DNA of 21,734 nucleotides, taken from the IMG/VR virus record IMGVR_UViG_3300043395_002187, positions 1 through 21,734 of that record, one strand, 5' to 3'. This DNA is from a virus. A program made the position numbers and the translations under genes. Shown in pieces: positions 1 to 13,994 of this stretch; within the stretch, counting starts at the first letter, position 1; each line of letters starts with the position of its first letter. The notes under the pieces are model-generated. The model was not told the origin of the DNA and searched no databases. It saw only the letters and a list, made by a program, of their open reading frames with translations.

Positions 1-211
1 GGTCGCCGGATTTCGCCGCCACATTGGAAAGCGCGACATAATCGCCCTGGCCGATCGCAGAGGCTGCGGCCTCATTGACTGAGCGCGCCCGTTGAGTGCG
101 GGCTTCTTCTTCCTGTTGCCGGCGGCGGGCTTCGGCTTGCTCGCGTCCGGCCATGAAATGCCCATACGGGTCAGGCGTGACTTGCCCGGAGAGGCCCCAG
201 TTGACGCTCAT
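1..211 (-). CDS. Possible third ejection (gp16-position) protein, N-terminal part only
   Basis: This reading frame starts with ATG at 211, overlaps the stop of the preceding gene by four bases (ATGA), and runs without a stop off the left edge, so only about 70 residues are visible. The N-terminus reads MSVNWGLSGQ, followed by a charged stretch rich in Glu, Arg and Gln (about residues 23-42, with a QEEEAR run) that could be helical or coiled coil. A GGGAG sequence lies about nine bases before the start. I recognise no domain. Its place after a gp14-like, a gp7-like and a gp20-like gene is the place of P22 gene 16, which encodes an ejected DNA-injection protein; that is an inference from order only. 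Start and strand are well supported; the function is not. Confidence 0.7.
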   Translation of the reverse strand, partial: MSVNWGLSGQVTPDPYGHFMAGREQAEARRRQQEEEARTQRARSVNEAAASAIGQGDYVALSNVAAKSGD

Positions 212-1194
212 CCGTACCAGCTCCCGTATTGGTCGGTTCCGTAGGATTTGTAGTCGTAGCGCGGCTGGGCCTGGGCAGGCTGCTTGCGGTTCGACCATGA
301 GCCATACGCGTTGCCCGCTGCAGAGCCGATCTGGTTCCACATGTTCGCGTTCGCATTACCTCGAGCCAGCGCTGCGTTCGAATACGCATCGGCTGCGTTC
401 TGGTTGGCCGAGTTGATGTTGTTGGTCGCCACTTGGCCTGCGTTCACCGCCAACTGAGACGCGTTATATCCGGTGTCAGACTGACGATTGCGCGCATTCA
501 GCCAATCAGAATAGGCCGAAGCTTTTCCGCCTGAATACGCATCATAAGCCGAGCCATAGCCCTGCCACATGCGGTTGTTGTTGGTTGACGCGTTCAAGTG
601 GTAGGCGCCAAGATTGGCTTCGCGGCGTTGAGCGAGATCATCATAGGCCGAATACCGCTTGCCGCCTTCATAAAGCGCGCGGTCCTGGGCGTAACGGTTG
701 CCGATCTCGGCGATGTTGCGGGTTGATTTACCGAGATCTCCGCGCACTCCAAAGCGAGAGGCTACTAGATTGCGCGCATCCTCGGCCTCACGCTGAGCGA
801 CTTGATCCCAGGCGTTGACTTCGTTGGTGATGAGCGCGTTGCGATCGCCGTAAGCAGAGCCCGCTTCCGCATTGAGATCATTGTAGGCGTTGGCGTTGAG
901 GGTTTGGTCGTCAAGGCTTTGGCCATAGACGAGCGCGTTGCGTTGATCGAGGTCAGAGCGCGCAAATTGCGCCAACGGCCCCGCGTCGATCTGATCCATG
1001 ACTTGCTGAGGGCCAGGCGCGGGCGCGGGTGCTTGAGGGGGCGCAGTAAAGCCTCCCTGTTGGCCTTGGGTGTTCCAATGCCATTCCCCGAAGCGCGCGG
1101 GATCATTGTTGAATTGGGCCTTTTGCGCCGGGGTCAGGTTGTTCCAGTAGGTCTGGAGCGCCGGGTTTTGGCCAAGATAAGCGGTCCAGTTCAT
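208..1194 (-). CDS. Asn/Ala/Tyr-rich virion protein, probable ejection protein (gp20 position)
   Basis: A 328-residue protein. The ATG at 1194 overlaps the previous stop (ATGA) and has AGGATGG just upstream. It has no recognisable enzyme motif. After an N-terminal part with many aromatic residues comes a Pro/Ala linker (about 50-63). From about residue 100 to 300 the sequence is low-complexity, dominated by Asn, Ala, Gln, Ser and Tyr in helix-like spacing (for example NAADAYSNAALARGNANAN near 266-284). The C-terminus is rich in Tyr and Gly. Such composition is typical of podovirus internal or ejection proteins, and the position matches P22 gene 20. It shares a YDAYSG motif (217-222) with the protein encoded just upstream (104-109 there). 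A tail-associated protein is an alternative. The gene is convincing; the role is inferred. Confidence 0.75.
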   Translation of the reverse strand: MNWTAYLGQNPALQTYWNNLTPAQKAQFNNDPARFGEWHWNTQGQQGGFTAPPQAPAPAPGPQQVMDQIDAGPLAQFARSDLDQRNALVYGQSLDDQTLNANAYNDLNAEAGSAYGDRNALITNEVNAWDQVAQREAEDARNLVASRFGVRGDLGKSTRNIAEIGNRYAQDRALYEGGKRYSAYDDLAQRREANLGAYHLNASTNNNRMWQGYGSAYDAYSGGKASAYSDWLNARNRQSDTGYNASQLAVNAGQVATNNINSANQNAADAYSNAALARGNANANMWNQIGSAAGNAYGSWSNRKQPAQAQPRYDYKSYGTDQYGSWYG

Positions 1195-1814
1195 ACGCGC
1201 ACCATCCTTCCCCACGCGCCGCGTGGGCCGCCATATCCTCCACCCGCATTCCCTTGCGGGTTATAGACCGGAGGGGCCGGAGGCGGCGCGGGAGGCGATT
1301 GAGGTTGTCCCGGACCTGCGCTCGGCAAAGGCGGCAAGCCTTGGGGGGTAAAATTCGCGTACCAGGGTGTTTCGGGTTGAGGCGCGGGCGGGGATTGCGG
1401 GCGCGTCGGCCCGCGCACTTGAGGAACCGCCCCGCCACTCGTCATGGCTGAATAGGCAGGGGTTCCCGCATTATAGACCGCTGACGGGCCAGAATACGCA
1501 TCGTAAGGCGACGGCGGACGAAACGCGCCGCCAGGATTGGCCCCATACGCGCGATTGACCGCCGCTGTCGCCGGGCTCACATTCCAGCGCGCGTCCAAGA
1601 TCGCATCGGCTGCGGTTCCGGCTTGCTGGTAGGGCTTGGCGGTTGACTGCGCGAGCGCGAGTTGTTCGCGCTGTAATGCGATTTGCGCGTCAGAAGATTG
1701 CTGTTGTGCGTTGGCGGCGGTTTTTGCCGCGCTCTTTTGCGCGTTGGAGGAAACGACTGCGCCGACAACGCCAGCGCCGGCAGCGATGAGGGGAGCCGCA
1801 GCGATCAAAGGCAT
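1191..1814 (-). CDS. Probable ejection/internal virion protein (gp7-like in position and design)
   Basis: A 207-residue protein starting with ATG at 1814, joined to the upstream gene by a TAATG junction; a GAGAGAGA purine run serves as ribosome binding site. Residues 3-22 are hydrophobic and rich in Ala and Gly (IAAAPLIAAGAGVVGAVV), resembling a membrane-active segment. A Gln/Ala-rich amphipathic helix or coiled coil follows (about 24-72). From residue 95 on the protein is Pro/Gly-rich and probably disordered. An N-terminal hydrophobic Ala/Gly stretch followed by a Gln-rich helix is common in phage DNA-transfer proteins that leave the capsid ahead of the genome. The order after the gp14-like gene matches P22 gene 7. 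I cannot show homology to gp7 itself. Confidence 0.72.
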   Translation of the reverse strand: MPLIAAAPLIAAGAGVVGAVVSSNAQKSAAKTAANAQQQSSDAQIALQREQLALAQSTAKPYQQAGTAADAILDARWNVSPATAAVNRAYGANPGGAFRPPSPYDAYSGPSAVYNAGTPAYSAMTSGGAVPQVRGPTRPQSPPAPQPETPWYANFTPQGLPPLPSAGPGQPQSPPAPPPAPPVYNPQGNAGGGYGGPRGAWGRMVRV

Positions 1815-2275
1815 TAGTGAATCTCTCTCTTGCGCGAGCCGTGCGATGCCGCCCACGCCTCTTGCGTCAGCATCCACAAGCGGAACGCGCCGATGTCGTT
1901 TTCAAACGGTTCACCGCAGGGGCGGAACCCAAACGAAAGCGGCGGGCGCGTGCGCCAATTGCCGACGCATTCTTGCGTGAACACAACCAACGCGCCCGAT
2001 TCAAACAGGCGCGTAAACGCAGCCTTGGCGGCGAAGAGAACCTCCCTCCCCCATCCGGCGCGCTTGTAAGCGGAATGGAGCTCAAACACTTTGCCGAACG
2101 CGTCCCTCGAAATGAACAAGAGCCCGCCGTTTTTGGTCGCCAGCGGCAACACGCCGGGGTGTGAGATCATTTCAAGAACGGCGTCCGGCGAGCGCCCGAA
2201 CAGGGCCGGGGCAACGTCAGGATCGGTGAAAATCCCGCGCCAAAAGGCTTCGTCGCGCTGCTCGCAAGGCTCCAT
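1814..2275 (-). CDS. GNAT-like/DUF2824-type protein, P22 gp14-like
   Basis: A 153-residue protein. A TTG codon at 2293 is in frame upstream, but I chose ATG 2275 (MEPCEQRDEAF) because TTG 2293 lies almost against the repeat at 2300. The fold suggested is a small acetyltransferase-like one: two strands around GVLPLATKNGGLLFI (41-55), then ELHSAYKRAGWGREVLFAA (65-83), which resembles the GNAT acetyl-CoA loop and helix, and a GFRPCGEP segment near 116-123. Phage proteins of this type (DUF2824) include P22 gp14, a small protein of the head and DNA-transfer module. The next two genes being ejection-protein candidates fits that. Catalytic activity is not assured, because the family may only keep the fold. 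It is the first gene after the plus-strand pair, so transcription probably restarts just upstream. Confidence 0.7.
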   Translation of the reverse strand: MEPCEQRDEAFWRGIFTDPDVAPALFGRSPDAVLEMISHPGVLPLATKNGGLLFISRDAFGKVFELHSAYKRAGWGREVLFAAKAAFTRLFESGALVVFTQECVGNWRTRPPLSFGFRPCGEPFENDIGAFRLWMLTQEAWAASHGSRKREIH

Positions 2276-2351
2276 GCCACTCTGTTTGCCCAAAGGGCTG
2301 GAACGCGGCTTGCGTCGGGTTTACCCTGCCCGGCAAATCAGGGAGGTTCGG
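2276..2351. promoter_or_regulatory. Divergent intergenic region between gp14-like gene and lipoprotein gene
   Basis: These 76 bases separate a minus-strand gene starting at 2275 from a plus-strand gene starting at 2352, so a promoter for each direction is expected here or nearby. One copy of the 15-base intergenic repeat lies at 2300-2314, oriented with the minus-strand gene. On the plus side, AGGGAGG at about 2339-2346 is the ribosome binding site of the lipoprotein gene. I see no good sigma-70 pair: TTGCGT with GCAAAT 17 bases later (plus strand) is a very weak match. The regulatory role is inferred from layout. Confidence 0.4.
2300..2314 (-). repeat. 15-base intergenic repeat, copy before the gp14-like gene
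   Basis: In the gene direction this reads CGCAAGCCGCGTTCC, followed by AGCCCTTT. It lies 24 bases before the ATG at 2275, in the region where the minus-strand operon restarts after two plus-strand genes. It differs from the copies at 9712 and 19959 by one base (C for T at position 3) and from the copy at 9345 by one base (C for G at position 8). Confidence 0.75.
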
Positions 2352-2720
2352 ATGCTTCGGGTTCTGGCTTTTGTGGCGGTTCTGGCCATTTCGGGGTGCG
2401 CAACCTCCGAGCAGATCATGCAGGGCTACGTCGGGCGCACGCTTCAAGACGTGATGCTTGACTACGGGGCGCCGACCAACGCCTTCGACATGCCAGACGG
2501 GTCGCGCGCCTTTCAATGGGCGGCGACGTCAACCTATGTGATGCCGACGACAGTCCAAACCTCAACCGTTCCCATCGGCAACACCTACATGACCAACACC
2601 CACATTTCCGGGGGCCAGCCGATCACAAGCTCATGCACCTATACGATGCTGGCGCGATGGGATGAGGCTCGGAACGCTTGGGTTTTCACCGACTTTCGTC
2701 CCCCGAATTGGGGATGTTGA
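2352..2720 (+). CDS. Small outer-membrane-type lipoprotein (moron candidate)
   Basis: A 122-residue protein on the strand opposite to the operon. The frame is open further upstream, but ATG 2352 is the right start: GGGAGG lies five bases before it, and the protein then begins with a clean lipoprotein signal, MLRVLAFVAVLAISGC, with lipobox ISGC and the lipidated Cys at residue 16. The mature part begins ATSEQIMQGYVGRTLQDVML and includes DYGAPTNAF and SRAFQW, a pattern like the small SmpA/BLIP-fold lipoproteins ('G..l.dv....G.P'). The C-terminus ends in PPNWGC. It would be anchored in a Gram-negative outer membrane. Possible roles are superinfection exclusion or another lysogenic-conversion effect; an outer spanin is a weaker alternative. 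It forms a pair with the membrane protein 54 bases downstream. Confidence 0.8.
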   Translation: MLRVLAFVAVLAISGCATSEQIMQGYVGRTLQDVMLDYGAPTNAFDMPDGSRAFQWAATSTYVMPTTVQTSTVPIGNTYMTNTHISGGQPITSSCTYTMLARWDEARNAWVFTDFRPPNWGC

Positions 2721-2774
2721 GCGTTCCCCCTCCGTCCTCTTGATTTCTTTCGCGTTTAGGGCAAGATTCAACCC

Positions 2775-3071
2775 ATGAAAGCACTCCAAACCCGGATGCT
2801 CGGCTACGCCCCCGATGAACGCGACCGGGAATATCCCCCGGAAGTGGTTTACTGGACGGAGCGCGCGCCAAAGCCTTGGTACCAGTCATGGTGGATGAAG
2901 GCTTACATCGTCGGCGCGTTCGCCTTCTTTGGCTGGCTAGCGTTCGGCGCGCTCAATCAGGCCATGACTGAGGGCGTGCCTGATTGGATTATCGCGTGGT
3001 ATTCCATCATCGTCGCCGTTTTCATGCTTGATTGGACTATCAGGGACCGACGTTCGCGAGAGGGTCGCTAG
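2775..3071 (+). CDS. Small two-helix membrane protein (moron candidate)
   Basis: A 98-residue protein starting with ATG 2775, same strand as the lipoprotein gene 54 bases upstream. Two hydrophobic helices are clear: about residues 43-63 (KAYIVGAFAFFGWLAFGALNQ without its ends) and about 70-88 (DWIIAWYSIIVAVFMLDWT). A charged tail rich in Arg follows (RDRRSREGR). The N-terminal 40 residues are polar with Trp and Pro. I recognise no family. The ribosome binding site is poor (TAGGGCAAG far upstream), so translation may depend on the lipoprotein transcript. Its 3' end overlaps the 3' end of the giant minus-strand gene by 32 bases, tail to tail, with no terminator visible between them. Superinfection exclusion or envelope interaction is a guess from topology and setting. 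Confidence 0.68.
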   Translation: MKALQTRMLGYAPDERDREYPPEVVYWTERAPKPWYQSWWMKAYIVGAFAFFGWLAFGALNQAMTEGVPDWIIAWYSIIVAVFMLDWTIRDRRSREGR

Positions 3072-6000
3072 CGGTCGCGCCCATCACACCAAGCGCGACT
3101 CCCGACACCCCATAGCGCTTCAGAAACGCCGTTAGTTCGCGCGTTGAATCAAACCGCCGCCCAAGCTCGCGCTTGAGCGTGCGCCGCAGATCAGCGTCGG
3201 CCACTCCTTCGGTTGAGATGCCCAGATCATCGGCCATCCGCCTCAGTGTCGGCGCGCGAACCCCTTGCAGGCCCCCGCTCGCGCCGCTTTCGGCGACGCG
3301 CTCATCGACAGGCGCGCGAGGTCTCGGCTGACGCGGTGAGCGCCCAAACAATGGCCTGCCCGTAACCGGGTCATAGAATCCCGCCGGTTGCCCCGCGTTC
3401 GGGTTGGGCTCGCGTCCGCTGACAAAGCCGATTTGCCGACTATCAGGCTGTGGAGCCTCGCGCTCCATCCAAATCAATTGATCGAGCGGATCAGCGCTTA
3501 GGAACTGCTCGCGCGGAGACCCTACGTTTTCACTGGGAAGGTCGCGATAGAATCCCTCATTGAGGGCCTCGCTGTCGCCAACCGAAAGCGGCGGCATCCC
3601 CTCTTGCTCTCTCAAAATGTCGCTGTGATAGTTCTCGCCCATAATGCGGCGAACGCGCGGGACTTCGTCTGAAAGAGCCTGCGCAAACGCATCACGGCGA
3701 AGCCTGAACGCTGGATCTGTCGCTAGCCTCAAATCCGCGCCGGAATTGGTCAGCCGTTCGGCGATGTCGGGGCCGATGCGTTCGATCCCTGCGCCGATGG
3801 CGGGAGATGTAAGCGTAGCGCCCACCGCCTCCAAAGGGTCGCCCCCTGCAATGTAGTCAGTAGCGCCAGCGGCCAGCGCGCCGTTGATGTCGCGCACGAC
3901 GCCGCGGCCAAGGCGTCGGCCCAAGAGCCCCGCTCCAACCGAAAGGCCTAAGCGTTCAATCAGCGGCAGACGCGGGCGGTCGCGCGCCTCTCCGTCATGC
4001 TCGCCTTGAAGGTAAGCGTCCCCCCCGGAATCCCCCGCCCCGCTTTCTCTGCCCGACGCCGCCAGCATTTCATCCGCAGACATTGGCGGGTGGAGTAGCG
4101 CGTCAATGCGCTCGCGCTCATCCGGGCGGATTGGAATTTCCGAGGGGTCGTGTTCGACAATGAGCGGGCTGCGGGCCTCAAAGAATGTCGCCGGTCCAAT
4201 AAAATCCGTGGTGCGTTGATCTTGGATCTGAACCCGGCGCAGCGTGCGCCCGTCGCGCGTGCGCCAATAAGTGGTTTGCTCCAAACGTCCGTCGCCCAAA
4301 TCGCGCGATTCCCGCGGCACGCCCAATTGGTGCGCGCCGGTCATATCTGGCGAGATGACCTGGTCACCTTCCTCCGCTTCCGCTCCCCCGCTCACCGCGT
4401 CCGCAGCAAGCAAAGCGCCACCGCCAATGGCGATGCCGGCGAGAGGGTCTATTTTGCGGCGAGTTCCGGGGCTTGCGTTTACGACGGCGATGGCGCGTCG
4501 GCGCACGGCGTCAGGAGTTCTGCGCCCATAGCGAGGCTCAGCCGCCGTCGCCAACAGCGCGCGCACTTGGGTTGCGTCAAGGTTCACGACGCGCCCGATT
4601 TCGGTCATGGTCATGGGCGAATTGTTGCGGATGGCGCGCTCTGCGATTTCGAGTATGCGCGTGGTCATTTCCCCGCCTGGGGTGCTGGTCGCGCCCCCTC
4701 TACCGCCAGTGATCCGAGAGGGAACCGGGATGCCTTCGGCGCGCGCTTGCGAAAGCGTTGCGCCCAAAGAGTTCTCCGACTTGATCCCGGTTGCGTTCAG
4801 GATGTCGGAAGTAGCGTAGATGAAGCGCCCGGTTTCATCCCGCGCGCTCGCCATGATGACGGCTTGAACGCGCGACGGGATCGGCCCTCCACGACCCTGA
4901 AACCAGGGATGCAGGTCGGCCGCCTCGCGCCACTGTTCCGGGTTTGTCGGCAACCGAGCTATTAAATCCGCTTCTGTTCCCGCTTCGGTCGCGCCGCGTA
5001 CCCCATGGGGATTAATGTTGGCTATAGGCTCTTGACCTATGCGCCGCGCTCCCGCTTCTGCCCCCTCCTCTACAGCGCGCGCGCCGCCAACGCCTGAAAG
5101 CGGGTTGGATTCCGCGCCACGACGGACTTGGCCGGAGCGGTAGGGGAAGCTGGTTTGAGGAGCAGGCACAGGCGGCGGCGGGTTGTCCTTGAACACTTGC
5201 CGGAACCAAGCATCGACGTCCTCAACCGTTGGGCGGTCAAGGTGCGCCATGTCGATGTGATTACCGTTAGGGCGGCTCGCCTCCACGGTCAGGGGCATGC
5301 GTCGCTCGCGCGCCGCTCGCACAGCGATCTCAATTTGCCGTCGCGTCGGAGGCCATTGCGTCTCAAAGAGGCCGTTGGCGGCGTCATAGCGAACGGCATC
5401 CGTTGCGTTCATGAAGGCAATCATGCCATCAGTCCCGCTCCCGTACTCCGCAGCGTGATCGAGAATGCTCGGCAGACCCGCCACGTCCCGGTGATCCAAC
5501 GTCCGCGATCCGTCACCGCCGATCTCGCTGAAGTCCAGCATTTTGCCGTCAGGAAGGATATAGCCCGCTTGATAGGGGTCGCGCGCGAGGCGGTATTCGC
5601 TGAGCGCCTCCTCGATCAGCGTATCGCCGTCGAGATTGTAGCCGAGCCAAGGCGGGCGCCCCTCGACTGTTACAGGCGGGCTGTTCTCATGTGCGCGTTG
5701 AATGACCTCTTCTTGCGACCCGCGAACAGGCGCGAGATTGTCTCTAGCGAGGTTGCGCGGTCCCGTGATGCCAACGCCTGTGAGCGGACCTCTGGCTTCG
5801 GCACGCTCTACAGCGCGCGCGCCGCGTCCTCTTCCAAGAGGGCCTATAGCCATAGCGGCGACGCCCGTCTCGCCCAGCCCGTCAAACTCTCCGTTATCGA
5901 GATAGTCGTAAGCAGCTGTTCCCCCGCCTACTCCAGCAAGAGCAAGGGGAACGCCTGCCATCAAATCGCTCTCTCCGCTTCTTGCGGGGTCAAAGGCGGC

Positions 6001-8586
6001 GAAGCGGGAGCGGATGTTGGAGGGGTCGAAAATGAGCCGGCTTCGGTCGCCATCGTGATTTGTCATTTCAATGGCATCGTAACCAGCGTCACGCGCGTTT
6101 TGAATGTCGCGTGGGCGAACATTCCTTTGCTGCACGCTAATCGGCATATGCTTTACGCGTCCACGCCCAACAAGCGGCATCACATTAGCGCCGGCGCCGC
6201 CCGAGCGCATGGCTTGCCTGTTTGGGCGTGCCGTTCCTGTGCTCACCCAGGTTTCGCCTCTGAATGCAGAAAAATCAGCATCAGTCCCGTGATACAGCGG
6301 CGTCTCTACGTCGAACCCCATTTCCCTTGCTCTCGCCATGCGCGAGGCTTCGTCCATGGGCAGATGAGACGCGCCCCGTAGGCCGCGCCCTCCAATGACA
6401 CCGCCAGCGATTGCGCCTATTCCAGTTCCCAAGGGATCAAACCCTCCGCCTTCGCTTCCATCCGAAGCGTTCGCGTCAGATAAGAGCGCGTTTCCAGCGG
6501 CCCCGCCAAGGGCTGCGCCCGCGCCTATCCCCAGAAGCGGCATGCTGCGGATGGCTTCGGGGAGGAGTTCGCCGTCGCCGACCCTTTGGAGTTGGGAGGG
6601 ACGCGGAGGCGGCGCGGCCTCAGTGCGGACCAGATCGATATGCCCGCCAGCGCCAGGAGCGACGCGCACCTCGTAGCCTTCCGGGGGGATGATGTTGCGC
6701 GCTAGGCGCTGGTAGATGAGCCGGTGACTGTCAGACGCGGGATAGAGCCTGTAGGCTTGGCGCGCGCGGGTTGCTGCATCTTCGGAGATCGCCGCGACCG
6801 CGCGCTCAATGACGCGCTGAGCTTCTTGGGGAGAAAACCGTTCGCCCGCGCGAAGTCCATAAGGCTCGTATTGATCGGCGCGGGCGATGTCCTCCAGTTG
6901 CACCTGACCAAAATTCTGGTCGCCGTTGATGGAGACCGCGAACTCGGCATTACGCGGACCACGAAACCCATAAACCGGGTAGCCAGCGCCGTCGACGTCC
7001 TCGGGGACTTCAAGGAGCGCTTGACGCGCCCAATCCGCGCGCTCCTCTGGAGTGCGGACAGGCTGCAACCCGTCGCCAAGCGGCGCACTCCCCCGTGCAT
7101 GTCTCCTCCCCATGAGAATTTCTGCGCCGTTGGCTTGGGCTGATTCCATCAGTCTCGCGTAAAGCCCTTGGCCGTCGCCGATGTCGCGGTTGACGCTGAC
7201 GTTTGTAATATGCCAGCCGTCAGGCTTGACCTCGTACTCGATGTAGCCCTCTGGACCGCTGACGCGTTGGGCGCGCGTTCCAACCCCCGAAAGCACATCC
7301 TCCCCCACTCTTTCAGGAGAGCGCGCGACAAGCTCAGGGGCTTGCTCACTGGCTTGGAAAGGAACGTCGCGGATGGATTCGATCGGTGAGGTCGCGCGTT
7401 CGGCGCGAGAGGCGCCGCCGAATTGTTCGCGCAACGCTTCGCCGATGCGGCCTGCAATGCGCGGCGCGCGCGGAGCCAGCGCAATTGCTGAGCCTATCGG
7501 AGCGCCGGCCACATAGCCAACACCTGCGCCAACGCCTGCATCGGCGAGACGTTCCGGCCATGTGTCAGCATCGGACGTGGCCGCGCCATAAGCGCCCCCC
7601 GCTGCGGCCCCTACGCCATGCCCTGCCCACCAGCCGACATTGGCCGGGATCACTGCATCGCGCACAAGATCGCGCGCCAGCGGGCTTGCATCGATCGCGC
7701 CGCGCACGCCTTGAACTGCGCCTCGAGCTGCGCCAGCGGTTCCTTGCGCCACGGTTTGCACGCCCCGCAGCGCCATGGGCAAATCCCCCGGCGCAAAGGC
7801 TGCATTGAGCCCCGCCCAGGCGGTTTCGAGGTTGGCGGCATCCGCCAGCGGGTCGATCTCAGAACCGCCCCCTAGTCCCCGCGCTTGCCGTGCACGGGCC
7901 AGATCGATTTGGCCTTGCAGTTCAGCCTCGTTTTCCCATGGCCCATAAGTGAGCGAACGCGCAATCTCAGGGCCGTACTGGACCGCGAGGCTCCCCACGC
8001 CGCCAATGAAATTAGGACCGTCGAAGGCTTCCGGATCGGCCTGATTGGAAACCCAATCGTAGCCTTGAGATATGAGATTGCCTGCGCCTTGGGCCGCGCG
8101 CGGCGCTTCGCGTTGAAGTGTCCCCGGAAGGTTCGCCAGCGCGTCGGGCGTCGCCTGTGCGACTTGGCCAATATCCCGCGCGGCCTGCCCTCCCCCGATA
8201 TAGCCCATCGCGGCCTGACCTGCGTCAGAAAGCCAATCGAGCGCGCCAGCCCCAGCGCGGCCCAAAGAATCGCGCCGCGAAGGGTCAACCAGCGCGTCCA
8301 CAAACGGCGCGGTCAGTCCCCCCAGCGGCATGACGTTTTGCCCTAGGCGGCGATCGAGGCCCGTTTGCGCTGTACTCTGGCGCGCGTCGGCTTCGAGATT
8401 GGCCAGCCGAAGCGGCCCATCTTGGATTTGATCGAGCGGAATGCCGCTGTCTGCAATCTGCGCCCACGCCGGGGGCGGAGCTATGCCTTCCAGGGGCCTT
8501 GGACGCCGTGCAGCGGTCATGGCGCGCGAGCGGGCTAGGATTTCCGCTACCCGTGCGCGTGACGCGTTGGTGTTGCCTGCCGGCAT
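3040..8586 (-). CDS. Giant multidomain 'polyvalent' phage protein with ADP-ribosyltransferase-like domain
   Basis: An 1848-residue protein whose ATG at 8586 overlaps the stop of the gp4-like gene (ATGA). Visible parts in order: a polar N-terminus; Gly/Ala hydrophobic segments at about 315-336 and 350-370; an acetyltransferase-like segment at 447-490 (YIEYEVKPDGWHITNVSV, then GQGLYARLM); more Gly/Ala segments at 684-700 and 719-735; an ADP-ribosyltransferase-like domain at about 761-870 (PLYHGT at 763-768, WVSTG at 780-784, GYDAIEM at 835-841, FDPSNIRSRFAAFDP at 853-867); a domain at about 960-1135 with ILPDGKMLDFS and the DHRDV motif (1031-1035), seen in large polyvalent proteins; a helix-turn-helix-like region at about 1306-1372; further Gly-rich segments near 1381-1400 and 1545-1605; and a basic, helical C-terminus ending in a short hydrophobic stretch. 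Such proteins are thought to be carried in virions and injected with the DNA. That role here is inferred from architecture and the structural operon. Confidence 0.88.
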   Translation of the reverse strand: MPAGNTNASRARVAEILARSRAMTAARRPRPLEGIAPPPAWAQIADSGIPLDQIQDGPLRLANLEADARQSTAQTGLDRRLGQNVMPLGGLTAPFVDALVDPSRRDSLGRAGAGALDWLSDAGQAAMGYIGGGQAARDIGQVAQATPDALANLPGTLQREAPRAAQGAGNLISQGYDWVSNQADPEAFDGPNFIGGVGSLAVQYGPEIARSLTYGPWENEAELQGQIDLARARQARGLGGGSEIDPLADAANLETAWAGLNAAFAPGDLPMALRGVQTVAQGTAGAARGAVQGVRGAIDASPLARDLVRDAVIPANVGWWAGHGVGAAAGGAYGAATSDADTWPERLADAGVGAGVGYVAGAPIGSAIALAPRAPRIAGRIGEALREQFGGASRAERATSPIESIRDVPFQASEQAPELVARSPERVGEDVLSGVGTRAQRVSGPEGYIEYEVKPDGWHITNVSVNRDIGDGQGLYARLMESAQANGAEILMGRRHARGSAPLGDGLQPVRTPEERADWARQALLEVPEDVDGAGYPVYGFRGPRNAEFAVSINGDQNFGQVQLEDIARADQYEPYGLRAGERFSPQEAQRVIERAVAAISEDAATRARQAYRLYPASDSHRLIYQRLARNIIPPEGYEVRVAPGAGGHIDLVRTEAAPPPRPSQLQRVGDGELLPEAIRSMPLLGIGAGAALGGAAGNALLSDANASDGSEGGGFDPLGTGIGAIAGGVIGGRGLRGASHLPMDEASRMARAREMGFDVETPLYHGTDADFSAFRGETWVSTGTARPNRQAMRSGGAGANVMPLVGRGRVKHMPISVQQRNVRPRDIQNARDAGYDAIEMTNHDGDRSRLIFDPSNIRSRFAAFDPARSGESDLMAGVPLALAGVGGGTAAYDYLDNGEFDGLGETGVAAMAIGPLGRGRGARAVERAEARGPLTGVGITGPRNLARDNLAPVRGSQEEVIQRAHENSPPVTVEGRPPWLGYNLDGDTLIEEALSEYRLARDPYQAGYILPDGKMLDFSEIGGDGSRTLDHRDVAGLPSILDHAAEYGSGTDGMIAFMNATDAVRYDAANGLFETQWPPTRRQIEIAVRAARERRMPLTVEASRPNGNHIDMAHLDRPTVEDVDAWFRQVFKDNPPPPVPAPQTSFPYRSGQVRRGAESNPLSGVGGARAVEEGAEAGARRIGQEPIANINPHGVRGATEAGTEADLIARLPTNPEQWREAADLHPWFQGRGGPIPSRVQAVIMASARDETGRFIYATSDILNATGIKSENSLGATLSQARAEGIPVPSRITGGRGGATSTPGGEMTTRILEIAERAIRNNSPMTMTEIGRVVNLDATQVRALLATAAEPRYGRRTPDAVRRRAIAVVNASPGTRRKIDPLAGIAIGGGALLAADAVSGGAEAEEGDQVISPDMTGAHQLGVPRESRDLGDGRLEQTTYWRTRDGRTLRRVQIQDQRTTDFIGPATFFEARSPLIVEHDPSEIPIRPDERERIDALLHPPMSADEMLAASGRESGAGDSGGDAYLQGEHDGEARDRPRLPLIERLGLSVGAGLLGRRLGRGVVRDINGALAAGATDYIAGGDPLEAVGATLTSPAIGAGIERIGPDIAERLTNSGADLRLATDPAFRLRRDAFAQALSDEVPRVRRIMGENYHSDILREQEGMPPLSVGDSEALNEGFYRDLPSENVGSPREQFLSADPLDQLIWMEREAPQPDSRQIGFVSGREPNPNAGQPAGFYDPVTGRPLFGRSPRQPRPRAPVDERVAESGASGGLQGVRAPTLRRMADDLGISTEGVADADLRRTLKRELGRRFDSTRELTAFLKRYGVSGVALGVMGATASDPLANVGP

Positions 8587-9305
8587 CAGGCCACGCTTTG
8601 ATCTTGGCCGGTCAGGCCCGTGCGCTGGGTTTGGCCGCCAATGTTGGAGGCCGCGCTTTCAGGATACATGATCGGGGGCACGCAATAGCGGTTGCGCAGC
8701 TTGGTTTTTCCGCCCCTCATCAAATGAAAGTCGGATTCAGTCAGGCTCGCGCCGTACTCTCCCCCCAGCCTGTGGGCAAGGATGAGCGCGACCGGAAGAT
8801 CAAACTCGCTCGGAAACGGGAGACTGTCGCTGGTGGCCAAATCCGCGGCCAGCTTCCAATCGCCTAGATCGGCGCGGAACATATAAACCCGGTTGGTTCC
8901 ATTGGAGGATATGGTCGCGTTGGCGGCACTTCCCGCAATCAGCAAGCCATTCCGGGCGATGGTGATATTATAAGTCGCCGCGTTGGCGCTCACGTCCACT
9001 ACCCCAAACCGGAATCCATCCTGTAGAGGAGCCGATGCGGTACCCTCAGGAAGCGTAATGGTGATGGCTGAGCTCGGGTGTCTGACCAAAACGCGTTGGG
9101 CCGGGTAATCCCAGCCGAGATCCATGGACGCGTCGCAGTAAGTGGTTTTCCACGCGATCGAGGAGCCAAACCCAATCATCTCATTGAGCCAGGCGTTGAG
9201 CTCCGTCAGCGCGTCGGTTTGCTGGTCAGAGGTAGGGCTTTCCCCTTGGCCTATAACCCGCAGCTTGCGCAAAGCCTGCTTGATCGTATTCGCCGCAGTC
9301 GCCAT
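8586..9305 (-). CDS. P22 gp4-like head-closure (portal adaptor) protein with inserted beta domain
   Basis: A 239-residue protein. A GTG at 9329 is in frame, but GGGGAGG abuts it with no spacing, so I chose ATG 9305, which has GGAG five bases before. The N-terminal half-domain (TIKQALRKLRVIGQGE, 7-22, and LTELNAWLNEMIG, 33-45) and the C-terminal part (PFPSEFDLPVALILAHRLGGEYG, 163-185, wording shortened) match the helical fold of P22 tail accessory factor gp4. That protein binds below the portal, seals the packaged head and starts the tail. Between them, about residues 75-153, lies a beta-rich block (ITITLPEG, FGVVDVSANAATYNITIARNG, YMFRADLGDWKL), which makes the protein longer than P22 gp4 (166 residues). 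A 9-bp hairpin covers the start region. Confidence 0.8.
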   Translation of the reverse strand: MATAANTIKQALRKLRVIGQGESPTSDQQTDALTELNAWLNEMIGFGSSIAWKTTYCDASMDLGWDYPAQRVLVRHPSSAITITLPEGTASAPLQDGFRFGVVDVSANAATYNITIARNGLLIAGSAANATISSNGTNRVYMFRADLGDWKLAADLATSDSLPFPSEFDLPVALILAHRLGGEYGASLTESDFHLMRGGKTKLRNRYCVPPIMYPESAASNIGGQTQRTGLTGQDQSVA

Positions 9306-9328
9306 GGAGGCTCCATCGTGAGCCTCCA
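9305..9328 (-). promoter_or_regulatory. Hairpin over the ribosome binding site of the gp4-like gene
   Basis: In the gene direction TGGAGGCTC pairs perfectly with GAGCCTCCA across a six-base loop (ACGATG). The arms are at 9305-9313 and 9320-9328, and the 3' arm includes the GGAG ribosome binding site and the A of the ATG start at 9305. Such a structure would limit free ribosome access, so it could tune the level of a protein needed in few copies. There is no T-run after it, so it is not a terminator. Confidence 0.45.
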
Positions 9329-9344
9329 CCCTCCCCTAAAGGCT

Positions 9345-10096: not shown

Positions 10097-10398
10097 TGCA
10101 CCGCCTCCGCCGGATCGGGAAATTCGGCCCTGAGGAATTCCAGAAGCAGGGCTGCGTCCTTCGCGAGCCACACATAGGCTTCAAGCCCATAGTCTTCGCA
10201 GTCACCGAAGGTCGCTGCGTTATCGGCCTCGAACACTTGGCGCCCGAGATAGTGGTATGCAATCCTGCGCAGCCTGTAGTGCCCCTCCTCGGTTCCATCT
10301 TTTATGTCCACGCCGAATTGCTTGCTGAGATCCGCGCACACGGCGTCGTACTGAGTGACGCCATCTCCGCAGGTTTTTGTTACCGTCCACTCGCTCAT
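10093..10398 (-). CDS. Hypothetical 101-residue protein
   Basis: A soluble protein of 101 residues. The frame is open upstream inside the glycosyltransferase gene, but ATG 10398 is the likely start because it overlaps that gene's stop (ATGA). Visible features are three Cys (10, 21, 67), an acidic balance, and a C-terminal helical region (EDYGLEAYVWLAKDAALLLE, about 68-87). No motif identifies a family. Its last codons (GAG GCG GTG CAA TGA) contain the ribosome binding site of the next gene. Because it lies at the downstream end of the glycosyltransferase island, it may be a partner of those enzymes or an ordinary small virion gene; nothing in the sequence decides. Confidence 0.65.
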   Translation of the reverse strand: MSEWTVTKTCGDGVTQYDAVCADLSKQFGVDIKDGTEEGHYRLRRIAYHYLGRQVFEADNAATFGDCEDYGLEAYVWLAKDAALLLEFLRAEFPDPAEAVQ

Positions 10399-11126
10399 TG
10401 TTTCACTCCGTCTTCGTTTGCAGGCTGAGCGAAGTCCGCCGCCAGCATGCCTTGAAACCGCACCTCGCCCGCGTGGGAGAGCATCAGCATCGGGTCTACA
10501 TAGATGGGGTAGCCCAATTCGCGCGCGCTCACGCAAAAGGCTACATCGCCTGAGTGGCGTTCTCCTGCAATGGTTCGCCGCTCAAACAGGCAAGGGGTTG
10601 TTTCGCCCCCGACCTCGGGCGAGATGAACCCCTTAGCCAGGAAATGCTCGGCCATGTGTGTGAGCAGCTTGCGCGACAACCGGAGGAACCCCGCCGGCAC
10701 TGACAGGATCCCCTCTCGGATGAGCCCGTCATCTCCGGTTTTGAGCACGTCGCCCTCAAACCGGAACGGGTAACTCACCTGCCATTCCTTGCGCCGGTAG
10801 ACGCCTGCAACGATGTCGCCCTCATGACAAATCAGGCGGTATAAAGCTTCCGGGGGAAAGCCGACGTCAGCGTCAATGAAGATGAGATAATCGGCCTCGG
10901 ACTTGAGGAATGCGGCGACGCACTGGTTTCTGGCGTCATCGACGTGACACCCGTTCGCCAGCAAATAATGATCGACCGCAATGCCCGCCCCCATCAGCCG
11001 CGGGATCGCCTTCACGATGGAGGAGAAATGGTTGGCGTAGGTGTGCGTCGTCGGCGTCGCGATGAAGGCGTGAACCTTTCCTTCCGTCTTTGGTATGGGG
11101 GAACGCGCATAATAAAATTCGGGCAT
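10395..11126 (-). CDS. GT-A-type glycosyltransferase (paralogue of the GT-methyltransferase fusion)
   Basis: A 243-residue protein. The frame extends to 11384, but that part lies inside the HNH gene in another frame; ATG 11126, overlapping the HNH stop (ATGA), is the start. It has the nucleotide-sugar-binding layout of GT-A enzymes: a first strand (VHAFIATPT, 18-26), HVDDARN (61-67), and a DxD metal-binding motif in FIDADVG (83-89), followed by DIVAGVYRRK (104-113) and VPAGFLRL (143-150). Near 180-219 come CLFERR, GDVAFC and a SHAGE ending. The same landmarks occur in the same order in the N-terminal half of the protein at 13982-15277, so the two are paralogues. Donor and acceptor cannot be read from the sequence. 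Candidate targets are virion proteins or host surface glycans. Confidence 0.82.
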   Translation of the reverse strand: MPEFYYARSPIPKTEGKVHAFIATPTTHTYANHFSSIVKAIPRLMGAGIAVDHYLLANGCHVDDARNQCVAAFLKSEADYLIFIDADVGFPPEALYRLICHEGDIVAGVYRRKEWQVSYPFRFEGDVLKTGDDGLIREGILSVPAGFLRLSRKLLTHMAEHFLAKGFISPEVGGETTPCLFERRTIAGERHSGDVAFCVSARELGYPIYVDPMLMLSHAGEVRFQGMLAADFAQPANEDGVKQ

Positions 11127-11650
11127 CAAGCGTCTCTGTAGCTCTGGTTGCGACGTATCTTCGATATCGTGGTGTAATTTACATTGTAGACCTTGGCCAA
11201 GGCTCGCAGTGAGCGGCCATCTTTTCTGATCAGCGATGCAATCTCGTTGGTGAGTTTGGCTCGACCGGATTTCTCTCCTCGATGGTTGACATAGCCATCC
11301 GTCCTGTCCGCGACATTGGACTTGCGGGTATCCCATCGCAGGTTTTCTACGCGATTGTTTGCTGGGTTTCCGTCGTTGTGACATGCCTCCATTCCCTCTG
11401 GGAGAGGACCAACGAAGGCGTACAGCACTAGCCTATGGATAAACACGGCCCCGGCATATCTGCCTTGGCCGTCGTACAAGTCGGCAATTAAATGGCCCGT
11501 CAGTGTCTTTGTTCCGCGGATGAACGATCCCGCTTTATAGCGCTTTGAGAGGGAGTCCGTCTTTCGGCGCAGCCGCCCCCAACTGGAGATCTCATAGACA
11601 TCCGCCAACCCCGAGGGGTGCGCCACCGGCCTCCATTCCTCTTCACTCAT
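11126..11650 (-). CDS. Free-standing HNH homing endonuclease (NUMOD4 + HNH + helix-turn-helix)
   Basis: A 174-residue protein starting with ATG 11650, overlapping the previous gene by eight bases; GGAG lies seven bases before the start. An N-terminal NUMOD4-type motif is seen at about 6-30 (WRPVAHPSG, YEISSWGRLRR). The HNH core includes IHRLVLYAFVG (71-81), CHNDG (90-94) and NNRVENLRW (98-106), with His72, His91 and Asn103 as likely catalytic or metal-binding residues. The C-terminus has GEKSGRAKLTNEI and RSLRALAKVYNVNYTTISKI (125-166), a DNA-binding helix-turn-helix common in these nucleases. The DNA is less GC-rich than its neighbours: two 60-base lines I counted are 50% and 52% G+C against 62% in a nearby glycosyltransferase line. 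That suggests a separate origin. It sits within the glycosyltransferase island with no intron visible. Confidence 0.9.
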   Translation of the reverse strand: MSEEEWRPVAHPSGLADVYEISSWGRLRRKTDSLSKRYKAGSFIRGTKTLTGHLIADLYDGQGRYAGAVFIHRLVLYAFVGPLPEGMEACHNDGNPANNRVENLRWDTRKSNVADRTDGYVNHRGEKSGRAKLTNEIASLIRKDGRSLRALAKVYNVNYTTISKIRRNQSYRDA

Positions 11651-11882: not shown

Positions 11883-12110
11883 TCAGAAGAGCCCCCAAAC
11901 GAATGGATCTCGGTAAGCATGGCCGCGCCGCATCGCCTCGGCTTCGACGGCGCAAAGCTGCTCGCAAGCGTCCTCTTGAGAGGATAGCGGCGCTCTGTTT
12001 GATAGCTCGGTCACTCTGTGAAATGTCTTGTGTATTGCGTCGCGCGCGACCGACAACTCGTCATCGGTCACTTGGTCAATAAATTGTGCCTTCCACATCA
12101 AGCGTCGCAT
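11883..12110 (-). CDS. Hypothetical 75-residue protein
   Basis: A small protein starting MRRLMWKAQFIDQ. The frame is open further into the glycosyltransferase gene, but the start is fixed by AAGGAGG seven bases before ATG 12110, which overlaps the preceding TGA (GTGATG). A GTG one codon earlier is possible but too close to the ribosome binding site. The protein is helical and charged (VTDDELSVARDAIHKTFHRV, about 14-33), with two Cys near 49 and 53, and ends FVWGLF. No family is recognised. The ribosome binding site is the same AAGGAGGCGGCGTGA block found at the end of the fusion glycosyltransferase gene. Confidence 0.62.
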   Translation of the reverse strand: MRRLMWKAQFIDQVTDDELSVARDAIHKTFHRVTELSNRAPLSSQEDACEQLCAVEAEAMRRGHAYRDPFVWGLF

Positions 12111-12122
12111 CACGCCGCCTCC
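12110..12122 (-). repeat. Shared 13-base gene-junction block, copy 1
   Basis: In the gene direction GGAGGCGGCGTGA ends one gene (Glu-Ala-Ala-stop) and provides the ribosome binding site for the next. The same 13 bases occur at 13632-13644 and 13982-13994; with the copy at 13982 the match runs to 15 bases (AAGGAGGCGGCGTGA). Confidence 0.7.
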
Positions 12123-12820
12123 TTCTCTTGCAACGCCTTCTGCACGTCGAGCCATTCGCCAAGGCAGGCTTTCACACTCCACTTCGGCGCGATTACATGC
12201 TGCATGGTGATGGCGGGATCGACATAGATTTTTCCCCCGAGATTGCGCCACGCATGACAGAAGAAGGTATCCTCCCCCCATGATCCTGGCGCTTGGAAAT
12301 AGGCCTTGCGTTTGTCGCCCCCCTCCCCGTTCGGGGGATCGTAGGTGTTCTGTCCATCCCAATGCGTGCGCTCGGCCATGATCTCATAGACGCGCCTTTT
12401 GGTGAGCATAAAGCCAGTGCCGACCGTATCGACCTCGATCAAACCTTTCTCATTGGGCGTGCGATCGGGCAGGAAGCGCACATTCCACGATATCTCGGCT
12501 TCCTTCTTAGGCACGGCCGCCGCGCAAATATCAACGTCATGGGAAAGCATGCGGATGACCGCGCCGGAGGTCCAGTTCATGTCCCCATCAACCCACATGA
12601 CCGCGTCGGCGTTGCGGTTGTGGAGTGCGTTCCACACCGCTTCATTGCGCGAACGCGCGATCAGCGACGATCCAGCAACCACGATGATGTCGGTGCGCCA
12701 GCCGAACTCCGGCAACTGGCGAAACAGTTCTTCCTCTTGCCGGATCTGAAACCAGGTCTCCCAGCAAACCTTGCCATCATAAAGCGGCAAGCAAAAGACA
12801 AGGAGTTTCGGTTCGCTCAT
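12110..12820 (-). CDS. GT-A-type glycosyltransferase, third member of the island's paralogous family
   Basis: A 236-residue protein starting with ATG 12820 (ATGA overlap; GGGAG just upstream). Landmarks: LLVFCLPLYDGKV (6-18), SLIARSRNEAVWNAL (52-66, the counterpart of the HVDDARN region), and WVDGDMNW (76-83) with the DGD metal-binding motif. Then come DICAAAVPKK (97-106), GLIEVDTVGTGFMLTKRRV (126-144) and WGEDTFFCHAW (181-191), which includes a likely catalytic acidic residue. The order 'SRN, DxD, AxVPKK, GTGF, D-FC' parallels the proteins at 10395-11126 and 13982-15277, so this is a more diverged paralogue. Substrate is unknown. It ends KEAA, and those codons double as the ribosome binding site of the next gene. 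Confidence 0.82.
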   Translation of the reverse strand: MSEPKLLVFCLPLYDGKVCWETWFQIRQEEELFRQLPEFGWRTDIIVVAGSSLIARSRNEAVWNALHNRNADAVMWVDGDMNWTSGAVIRMLSHDVDICAAAVPKKEAEISWNVRFLPDRTPNEKGLIEVDTVGTGFMLTKRRVYEIMAERTHWDGQNTYDPPNGEGGDKRKAYFQAPGSWGEDTFFCHAWRNLGGKIYVDPAITMQHVIAPKWSVKACLGEWLDVQKALQEKEAA

Positions 12821-13635
12821 GCGTGCTCCCGCAACAGCGCGAGGCTTTTCTCAGCGCGTTTCTTCTGCCGGTCATAGAGGGGGTTTGGTTCGGGCTCCGC
12901 CATGCTCTCGGCGCGCTCAAACAAAGACGGATCGAACTCGAACCGCGCCATCGCGGCGATGAACTCCACCATGGGGCGCACGGTTTCATCGCCCACAATA
13001 GCGACAGCCGCATTGAGGCGCGCCGGCCGCAACGCGTTGAAATAGCCGGTCCAGAATGGCAGGTCGCGCATGCCGCGGGTCAAGCCATTGCCCGAGGGGC
13101 GATAGCTCCACGCCATCTCATGGCGACGCGCGATCAGCACAGCGATGTCGTCAAGCCAGGTATCCCCGAACCAATAGGGAAAGAACGGGGGAACCACGAA
13201 GCCCTGCGCGCGGCGGATGCGCTCCTCGAATGTCTTAGGCATGAACAGATAGGCCGCCACAGTGTCGGAGGCTTGGCCCCGGATGCGCGGGCGCCAGAAG
13301 CCTATATCGGCCTCGCCGATCGCATCGCGCGTGATCTCATCCCAGTGTTGCGTCTCACACACGACATCGTCGGAGCCCCAGCCAACGATATCGCCTTGAG
13401 CCTCTTGCATCAGGCGGTCGAAGGTGGCGTTGACGTTGGTTCTCGGCGCGATGGAGACGCGCACCAGATCGCTCTCCAGGCCACGGTAATTGTTGAGCTC
13501 TGGATCGTCATCATCAACGCCGAGGATGATGCTGACATCGTCATGGCGCGCGACATGGTGAAACATGGAGATGATATAGGCTGCGGCTCCGCGCGGTCGC
13601 CCCCTGCTCGGAACGCAAAGAGTGATGGAGGTCAC
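12817..13635 (-). CDS. GT2-like glycosyltransferase
   Basis: A 272-residue protein read from GTG 13635, which overlaps the preceding TGA; GGAGG lies just before. The N-terminus (MTSITLCVPSRGRPRGAAAY) is a typical start of GT2-family sugar transferases. An acidic DDDDPE run (41-46) and GWGSDDVV (85-92) supply candidate donor- and metal-binding residues. The region with FWRPRIRG and FPYWFGDTWLDDIAV fits the acceptor side. The C-terminus (about 225-272) is a charged helix. It is less similar to the other three glycosyltransferases here than they are to each other, so it is probably a different family within the same island. Protein or surface-glycan glycosylation is the likely job; the acceptor is unknown. 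Confidence 0.75.
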   Translation of the reverse strand: MTSITLCVPSRGRPRGAAAYIISMFHHVARHDDVSIILGVDDDDPELNNYRGLESDLVRVSIAPRTNVNATFDRLMQEAQGDIVGWGSDDVVCETQHWDEITRDAIGEADIGFWRPRIRGQASDTVAAYLFMPKTFEERIRRAQGFVVPPFFPYWFGDTWLDDIAVLIARRHEMAWSYRPSGNGLTRGMRDLPFWTGYFNALRPARLNAAVAIVGDETVRPMVEFIAAMARFEFDPSLFERAESMAEPEPNPLYDRQKKRAEKSLALLREHA

Positions 13636-13644: not shown

Positions 13645-13985
13645 GTGGGCTCAAACTCACCGCAAAAGTCGCTGCTCACTGTGCATGGCCATGCGGTCTT
13701 GACCCCCCAAGTCCTGACCTCTCCGCTCGGCCATGTTTGACCGCGCACCTCAGGGAGGCCGATTGGGGCGCGGGCGCGGCACTCGCCCAGACCATCGTCA
13801 TCAACGATTGCCCGCCAAAAGAGGCAGCTTCCGCAGTTGAGTTCCGCAGGCCCACGCAGCCCTCCTGTTGGCGGACTGACGCAAGCCATGTGATAAGGCG
13901 AGCCGGCCATAAAAGCGACGGTAGGATCGGCGATTGACCGCCCGCAGCGTGCGCAGGTCGGTGGGGTTGCTGTTGAGCCGCTCAC
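13632..13985 (-). CDS. Small Cys-rich, probably metal-binding protein
   Basis: A 117-residue protein read from GTG 13985. A longer upstream frame exists, but this GTG overlaps the stop of the fusion glycosyltransferase gene and follows AAGGAGG by four bases. Cysteines form two groups: CARC (11-14) with YHMAC (His32, Cys35), a CxxC/HxxC zinc-type site, and CGSC (51-54), GEC (69), WPC (101) and FCGEF (108). The second pattern ('C..C.FW ... G.C ... WP ... CGEF') is widespread in small uncharacterised bacterial and phage proteins. A structural metal or iron-sulfur site is likely, but the function is unknown. Its coupling to glycosyltransferases on both sides suggests a helper in that pathway. Confidence 0.68.
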   Translation of the reverse strand: MSGSTATPPTCARCGRSIADPTVAFMAGSPYHMACVSPPTGGLRGPAELNCGSCLFWRAIVDDDGLGECRARAPIGLPEVRGQTWPSGEVRTWGVKTAWPCTVSSDFCGEFEPTEAA

Positions 13986-13994
13986 GCCGCCTCC
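13982..13994 (-). repeat. Shared 13-base gene-junction block, copy 3
   Basis: GGAGGCGGCGTGA in the gene direction, ending the glycosyltransferase-methyltransferase gene (Lys-Glu-Ala-Ala-stop) and giving the GTG start of the Cys-rich protein gene. Confidence 0.7.

Follow-up and report, generated by a model that had tools for sequence, protein, structure and literature searches.

An 1848-residue predicted polyvalent protein with ART-like and DHRD modules in the late operon of a P22-type phage contig

A giant gene within a P22-type structural operon

The window analysed here, a single metagenomic contig of 21,734 bases, contains one uninterrupted open reading frame of 1848 codons on the minus strand (3040..8586), which makes up 25.5% of its length and agrees with a preceding sequence-only reading that had assigned about a quarter of the window to one gene. 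In 300 trials with first-order Markov sequences modelled on this region, the longest stop-free run had a mean of 280 aa and a maximum of 624 aa; the 1848-aa frame lies far above this maximum and is therefore not a product of chance. Codon-position GC (0.73/0.55/0.66) is steady along the gene. The encoded protein contains no cysteine, and a self-comparison revealed no internal repeats. A motif search detected no HExxH zincin motif, and processing of the protein by a zincin autoprotease was rejected on this ground.

Searches with the whole protein sequence revealed no full-length relative in IMG/VR, two local matches in phages and one in genome contigs, none of them full-length, and no match in plasmids. 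NCBIfam and PADLOC gave no match, the PDB searched by sequence gave weak, spurious-looking matches only, and no match to SNF2, methylase, ParB or lysozyme was detected. Residues 1-430 and 1150-1848, well over half of the protein, have no detectable relative.

The genes of the operon are all encoded on the minus strand in the order TerS-TerL-portal-scaffold-coat, followed after further genes by gp4 and the giant gene and, further on, by an ejection gene; PHROG matches on this strand gave E-values of 1e-96 for TerL, 2e-107 for portal and 6e-89 for coat. The giant gene thus lies near the late/virion genes of a portal-terminase phage, as is characteristic of polyvalent proteins. Its start overlaps, in the sequence TGATG, with the upstream P22 gp4-type head-tail adaptor gene (8586..9329, minus), which matches PHROG 637 'head-tail adaptor Ad3' (E=4.8e-4) and, in a phmmer search, the PBR31 'tail tubular protein A' (E=4e-4). 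Coupling to a head-closure gene had been proposed; the overlap is present, but the upstream gene resembles gp4/Ad3 (PHROG 637). An Hc3/gp10 head-closure gene was not found in any ORF of the window, and for this reason the giant gene was rejected as a replacement of, or a fusion with, gp10.

Directly after the giant gene, a two-gene insertion on the opposite strand encodes a small membrane-type protein (2775-3071) and a lipoprotein-like protein (2352-2720). It is followed by a small acetyltransferase-type gene (1814..2293, minus), assigned by its position before the ejection genes as in PBR31 and contig L010, with no profile match of its own, and by a P22 gp7-type ejection protein gene (internal virion protein A; 1191..1877, minus; PHROG 598 'DNA ejection', E=4.3e-7). 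The latter also matches its counterpart in L010, which itself matches PHROG 598 at E=1e-30. Four sugar-transferase-like genes lie within the operon, and no Rfam RNA or tRNA was detected in the window. In two other P22-type contigs, the slot between gp4 and gp10 is occupied by a smaller ART-family protein, with 420 aa in L115 and 347 aa in L010; the latter displays the order gp4-slot gene, ART protein, gp10, GNAT-type gene and PHROG 598 ejection protein.

Modules of the giant protein

The segment at aa ~741-880 (5947..6366, minus), with the pattern LPMDEASRMARAREMGFD...YHGT...FDPSNIRSRFAAFDP, matches Pfam ART-PolyVal (PF18760) with E=3.4e-5 and 25.1 bits, under the curated cut-off of 31.2. Homology is nevertheless clear through its relatives, which were found in at least 124 viral loci of IMG/VR; 28 of the 43 scanned match the ART-PolyVal model at E<=0.001. 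By its sequence the module is therefore a divergent relative of ART-PolyVal and not a model-level member, and the ADP-ribosyltransferase-like domain noticed earlier is borne out. The AF2 model (pLDDT mostly 86-97) predicts an ART fold, with PDB structure matches to MbcT (probability 0.95), tankyrase 2 (0.90) and the anti-CRISPR protein 6kyf (0.80; presumably AcrIF11), at E-values of only 0.05-0.12.

The active site of ART-PolyVal comprises H in strand 1, Y in strand 2 and D in strand 5 (PMC5512222). The module shares with this family the strand-1 H (H766), the conserved FDPxNIRS block and the modelled fold, and differs from it by the sub-cut-off score, a Trp (W780) in the strand-2 aromatic column, a Ser (S849) in the acidic column of strand 5 and a shortened strand-2 loop, in which the Gly-rich stretch ahead of the strand is missing. 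In addition, T785/P788/Q791 replace the conserved P/A/Y of the helix after strand 2. Among 38 relatives, E is the commonest residue in the strand-5 column (16/38), and the strand-2 column contains Y, W or F (19, 12 and 3). A loss of the catalytic Tyr, considered at one point, was withdrawn because of this variation, and only the strand-5 acid and the loop and helix positions are unusual. Judged by these residues, activity is doubtful and the ART may be impaired. The module is internal, whereas in the family it is as a rule C-terminal: most relatives are much shorter (median 417 aa) and have a median of 23 aa after the ART, compared with about 970 aa in the giant protein.

Preceding the ART, aa ~438-660 (6607..7275, minus) were modelled by AF2 as a GNAT (acetyltransferase)-like region with an apparently long insert. 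Its best PDB match is AcrVA5 (6iuf; E=3.5e-3, probability 1.00), and many GNATs match too. The pLDDT of the region is moderate (60-76). The sequence NVSVNRDIGDGQGLYARL fits a G-x-G-x-type acetyl-CoA loop. The model of GNAT and ART together reached an overall pTM of only 0.44, so we relied mainly on its ART half. No sequence profile, including those of Pfam, matched the region; the acetyltransferase-like segment proposed earlier has a modelled GNAT-like fold but no profile match. It is mainly the structure match that suggests a GNAT-like region before the ART, an arrangement also seen, directly adjacent, in L014 and L009.

The DHRD domain at aa ~985-1140 (5167..5634, minus) was delineated in an alignment of 11 sequences. 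Its pattern is AGYILPDGKMLDFS...R...DHRDV...R-x-D...P-T-x-x-Q, in which the A-G-Y, D-F-S, R, D-H-R and Q positions are conserved. Giant phage proteins of 1,600-4,085 aa from very different hosts share the domain; three of these proteins have LPD3, LPD22 or ddrB-ParB above the Pfam cut-off, in keeping with its proposed polyvalent-associated nature. A repeat scan returned the same eleven contigs. In the class to which the L089 host belongs, 245 genomes yielded DHRD in L089's own genome only, and the domain therefore looks sporadic there. The core folds confidently (AF2 pLDDT mostly >90), and the model has no match in the PDB. No Pfam family matched the window segment or the corresponding DHRD stretch in four giants, none of the existing Pfam LPD (large polyvalent-associated) models matched the segment, and no PHROG was found for the domain among the 11 members. 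On these comparisons, DHRD is a conserved module described by no public library searched.

Profile searches by segment thus gave a match for ART-PolyVal but no significant one for the GNAT-like, DHRD or HTH segments, while structure prediction by segment yielded an ART fold, a GNAT-like fold of moderate confidence and the DHRD core. The proposed helix-turn-helix-like region (aa ~1205-1375; 4462..4974, minus) remains statistically unsupported, as its best Pfam matches (E=0.03-0.2; HTH_AsnC-type 0.09, HTH_27 0.18) are not significant. Gly/Ala hydrophobic segments are located on the minus strand at aa 347-371 (7474..7548), 678-702 (6481..6555), 875-893 (5908..5964) and 1382-1400 (4387..4443). Their mean KD hydropathy exceeds 1.3 in the 19-residue stretches 352-370, 684-702, 875-893 and 1382-1400, and the third segment sits where ART relatives have their usual C-terminal tail. 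At least six such segments had been counted from the sequence; four are clear at this threshold and about seven appear at a relaxed one.

Relation to known polyvalent and giant phage proteins

Phage polyvalent proteins with ART and GNAT adjacent within one polypeptide have been described in late-gene context, from which their packaging was predicted (Iyer et al. 2017, PMC5512222), and ARTs have been found near portal/terminase genes (PMC9503650). The window protein shares with the former the large multidomain chain, the ART and GNAT-like modules, the latter recognised by structure, and the late structural neighbourhood of a portal-terminase phage. It differs in that it has no zincin motif and no detected SNF2, methylase, ParB or lysozyme match, its DHRD has no Pfam (LPD) model and its ART is partly degenerate. 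Two independent homologous modules, the ART and a DHRD that it shares with LPD-bearing giants, support its assignment to the phage polyvalent proteins, as the sequence-only reading had proposed. The kind of protein is already known; its novelty lies in its architecture and in DHRD.

The 2163-aa protein of L014 resembles it in a GNAT-like region directly before a mid-chain ART, in Gly/Ala segments, in about 600 aa after the ART and in an internal-virion gene cluster. The two proteins align significantly in the ART region only; no DHRD was detected in the L014 protein, which follows ejection genes and not gp4, directly after genes matching PHROG 598/21132 'DNA ejection' and PHROG 2534 'released from the phage upon host infection'. 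In L091 and L092, a gene matching PHROG 418 'internal virion protein' lies two genes ahead of the giant. In L002 (Rhodobacteraceae phage LS06-2018-MD07, >3100 aa) and L089 (Clostridia MAG contig, 3548 aa), a single giant late protein contains a DHRD and, after it, an ART-like segment; both differ in gene slot, L002 also by an extra methyltransferase annotation and L089 by an extra LPD3 module. The capsid-delivered early-acting enzymes T4 Alt, N4 virion RNA polymerase and P1 DarB are comparable by analogy only, and no sequence relation to the window protein was found. T4 Alt belongs to a different ART clade (R-S-E).

Proposed virion packaging and alternative explanations

Because smaller ART proteins share the gp4-gp10 slot and giant relatives follow internal-virion or ejection genes, we favour, as reasonably probable, a late-made polyvalent protein that is packed in the capsid, is ejected together with the DNA or shortly ahead of it and then modifies the host. 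Gene position and context are the basis for this predicted packaging and delivery. The protein would be made together with the head and tail proteins, and after ejection its ART and GNAT modules could modify host proteins, candidate targets being RNA polymerase and proteins of host defence, for example those of CRISPR or restriction complexes. The Gly/Ala segments between the modules are probably flexible, membrane-compatible hinges that would help a partly unfolded chain to cross the portal and the inner membrane. P22 ejects gp7/16/20, and other putative ejection proteins reach 5007 aa (PMC8402733). Several features count against this explanation: the slot after gp4, which differs from the ejection-gene slot of the giant relatives, the moderate pLDDT of the GNAT-like region, the degenerate ART (S849, shortened loop, T785/P788/Q791), the much shorter ART relatives and the large part of the chain that has no detectable relative.

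The degenerate ART positions would also suit an internal virion or ejection-conduit component, in which the ART is dead, the enzyme-like modules are relics, and the function lies in the chain length and the Gly/Ala segments, which would fill the capsid or form or line a trans-envelope channel. The repeated Gly/Ala segments here and in L014 and the last internal-virion-protein position of the giant relatives point in the same direction. We regard this as unlikely, since the gp7-type gene and a further virion-type gene are separate and downstream and leave no obvious gap in the conduit set, H766 and the strand-2 aromatic are kept, and recognisable conservation of ART and DHRD is unexpected for mere filler. 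Less likely still is a late-made, unpackaged cytoplasmic protein for host modification or against superinfection whose gene simply happens to be in the late operon. The site does accept accessory genes, as the opposite-strand insertion implies, and the sugar-transferase-like genes are also within the operon; however, many phages carry an ART protein among their structural genes, in two cases exactly between gp4 and gp10, the start is overlap-coupled to a structural gene, and giants elsewhere come after ejection genes. That a chimeric contig or a multi-gene fusion created the ORF as an assembly artefact, with gp10 lost in the process, seems hardly credible. Such an origin would fit the single metagenomic contig, a gp10 expected directly after gp4 and missing from the window, and the long extension after an ART that usually ends its relatives. 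Against it, no stop interrupts the frame, codon-position GC is steady along the whole gene, the ART of L014 is also mid-chain, and ART and DHRD occur together in L002 and L089.

If packaging and ejection are right, the polyvalent class gains a candidate ejection protein of very large size from a P22-type phage, and gp4-gp10 would be a recurrent slot for ART-family proteins in P22-type phages. Within proteins that are presumably injected as infection begins, DHRD is a concrete target for structural and functional work. The resemblance of the modelled GNAT and ART to the anti-CRISPR enzymes AcrVA5 and 6kyf leads to a bolder reading, to which we give only a slim chance: DHRD as an undescribed, PDB-absent fold would form with them a virion-delivered counter-defence device against host immunity. 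A P22-type phage would then disable host immunity before any phage gene expression.

The 1848-codon gene and its operon

The contig is viral and comprises 21,734 bases. Its minus-strand late operon runs, in transcription order, from TerS through TerL, portal and a scaffold-type gene to the coat gene, which is of the P22 family. Downstream of coat lie a number of small genes together with four sugar-transferase-like ones, then a gp4-type adaptor. The 1848-codon gene is next; one small gene separates it from a gp7-type ejection gene, which is followed by one more gene of virion type. The 1848-residue ORF that the sequence-only reading had placed at 3040-8586, without naming its strand, is confirmed on the minus strand. 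It is free of stops with steady codon-position GC over its full length, and exceeds the longest stop-free run in Markov sequences of the region (at most 624 codons in 300 trials). The encoded protein belongs to the phage polyvalent proteins, an already known class; its GNAT-like, ADP-ribosyltransferase-like (ART) and DHRD architecture was met in no other protein found in these searches.

The ATG of the gene overlaps the stop codon of the gp4-type gene by one base (...GTGGCCTGATGCCGGCA...), an arrangement compatible with translational coupling. A coupling to the head-closure gene had been proposed; the overlap is present, but the upstream partner is the gp4-type adaptor. Profiles of the head-closure protein gp10 (Hc3) matched no ORF of the window even at E=10. 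In 44 coat-related contigs gp10 follows the coat/gp4 region, whereas no gp10/Hc3 gene was found in positions 1-9329 of the window; it may lie beyond the left contig end, after the ejection genes.

ART and GNAT-like modules

Residues 736-866 matched Pfam ART-PolyVal with E=3.4e-5 and 25.1 bits, below the curated cut-off of 31.2. A two-row alignment of the window protein and an Octadecabacter phage protein retrieved at least 124 relatives of the module from IMG/VR, of which 80 were kept. The proteins that carry the ART in these relatives range mostly from 213 to 906 aa; their median length is 417 aa, and a median of 23 residues lies behind the module. ART-PolyVal was matched at E<=0.001 by 28 of the 43 relatives scanned; LPD23 is present in three and a GNAT in three. 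A near-invariant block reads LPMDEASRMARAREMGFD...YHGT...FDPxNIRSxFAxFDP. The AlphaFold model is confident (pLDDT blocks mostly 86-97) and matched MbcT, tankyrase 2 and the anti-CRISPR structure 6kyf, which we take to be AcrIF11, with probabilities of 0.80-0.95 and E-values of only 0.05-0.12. The predicted ART-like domain was thus borne out. The ART active site consists of H, Y and D of strands 1, 2 and 5 (Iyer et al., PMC5512222). The window protein retains H766 and carries W780 as strand-2 aromatic, in a column with Y, W or F in 34/38 relatives. Catalytic activity is nevertheless uncertain, because S849 occupies the strand-5 acidic column and the loop ahead of strand 2 is shortened.

Sequence-profile searches detected nothing in residues 430-665. 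The top PDB match of a modelled 415-895 construct was AcrVA5 (6iuf; E=3.5e-3, probability 1.00, 22% identity), a 92-residue GNAT anti-CRISPR, with many GNATs lower in the list. A similar region stands immediately ahead of the same ART in two independent relatives (L014 and L009), and GNAT typically adjoins ART within one polypeptide (Iyer et al., PMC5512222). With pLDDT of only 60-76, we call residues ~430-665 'GNAT-like' with moderate confidence; the proposed acetyltransferase-like segment is thus upheld by structure, but not by profiles. AcrVA5 acts on Cas12a by acetylation, and AcrIF11 on the Csy complex by ADP-ribosylation (PMC13131331); a counter-CRISPR role for these modules is a lead rather than a result.

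Gly/Ala hydrophobic segments, which had been noticed, set the modules apart, and do so likewise in the 2163-aa L014 protein. No relatives were detectable for residues 1-430 and 1150-1848. Profile searches and structure prediction by segment, the check that had been suggested, recovered ART and DHRD by sequence and the GNAT-like region by model, but left the helix-turn-helix-like region unsupported, its Pfam matches not being significant.

The DHRD domain

Residues 985-1140 match part of the giant gene in Rhodobacteraceae phage LS06-2018-MD07 (L002), at 45% identity, and part of a 3548-aa protein of a Clostridia MAG contig (L089). An alignment of three sequences led to eleven IMG/VR contigs, where the domain lies within ORFs of 1616-4085 aa. 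Nine positions (A53, G54, Y55, L63, R74, D77, H78, R112 and Q130, construct numbering) are unchanged in 11/11 aligned rows. LPD3, LPD22 or ddrB-ParB scored above the Pfam cut-off in 3/4 DHRD giants, none overlapping the DHRD segment, and PHROG gave no match for any member. The AlphaFold model reached pLDDT >=90 at 119/221 residues and found no matching PDB entry (best E=0.32, probability 0.08). Against the viral model library the domain matched two phage proteins clearly, both of them poorly characterised, and Shigella phage pSb-1 weakly, through an uncharacterised protein of 1453 aa. The DHRD domain of the sequence-only reading is therefore real, polyvalent-associated and undescribed in the libraries searched; it could still equal one of the original LPD alignments. 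It deserves follow-up.

The L002 (4431-13732) and L089 (932-11578) genes are both late and giant, and in each an ART-like segment comes after DHRD. The L002 gene crosses the record start, and its sole label is 'methyltransferase'. A 1823-aa protein (L093:8279-13750) apparently has three DHRD-like copies and is not within an obvious structural operon.

Proposed virion delivery and neighbouring genes

In two P22-type contigs the place between the gp4-slot gene and gp10 (PHROG 578 'head closure Hc3') is taken by an ART-family protein, of 347 aa in L010 and of 420 aa in L115. The 420-aa protein is an ART by profile (E=6e-9); BLAST does not align it to the window protein. No ART was detected in this slot of the other coat-related contigs with gp10, so that it is an occasional passenger there. 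The giant relatives occupy the ejection slot, in contrast to the gp4 slot of the window gene: the L014 giant sits after PHROG 598/21132 'DNA ejection' and PHROG 2534 'released from the phage upon host infection' genes, those of L091 and L092 two genes behind PHROG 418 'internal virion protein'. P22 ejects gp7, gp16 and gp20, and a putative 5007-aa ejection protein is described in another short-tailed phage (PMC8402733). Judged from this context (late operon, gp4 overlap, shared slot, ejection-gene neighbours and P22 precedent), virion delivery is predicted for this protein, as the best reading.

The sugar-transferase-like genes lie on the minus strand between coat and gp4 (10395-11384, 12110-12820, 12817-13635 and 13982-15277). 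Related genes stand at the same place in three contigs with coat relatives (L113, L116, L131), and a 583-aa L080 protein matches all four. A minus-strand homing-endonuclease-type gene (11126-11650; HNH_3 and NUMOD4) lies inside the late operon; its L111 relative comes after the coat gene. Immediately behind the giant gene, within the minus-strand operon, lie two plus-strand genes. One (2352-2720) encodes a 122-aa lipoprotein-like protein whose signal peptide has an LAISGC lipobox, the other (2775-3071) a membrane-type protein of 98 aa with a weak DUF7940 match. The pair looks like an accessory (moron) insertion.
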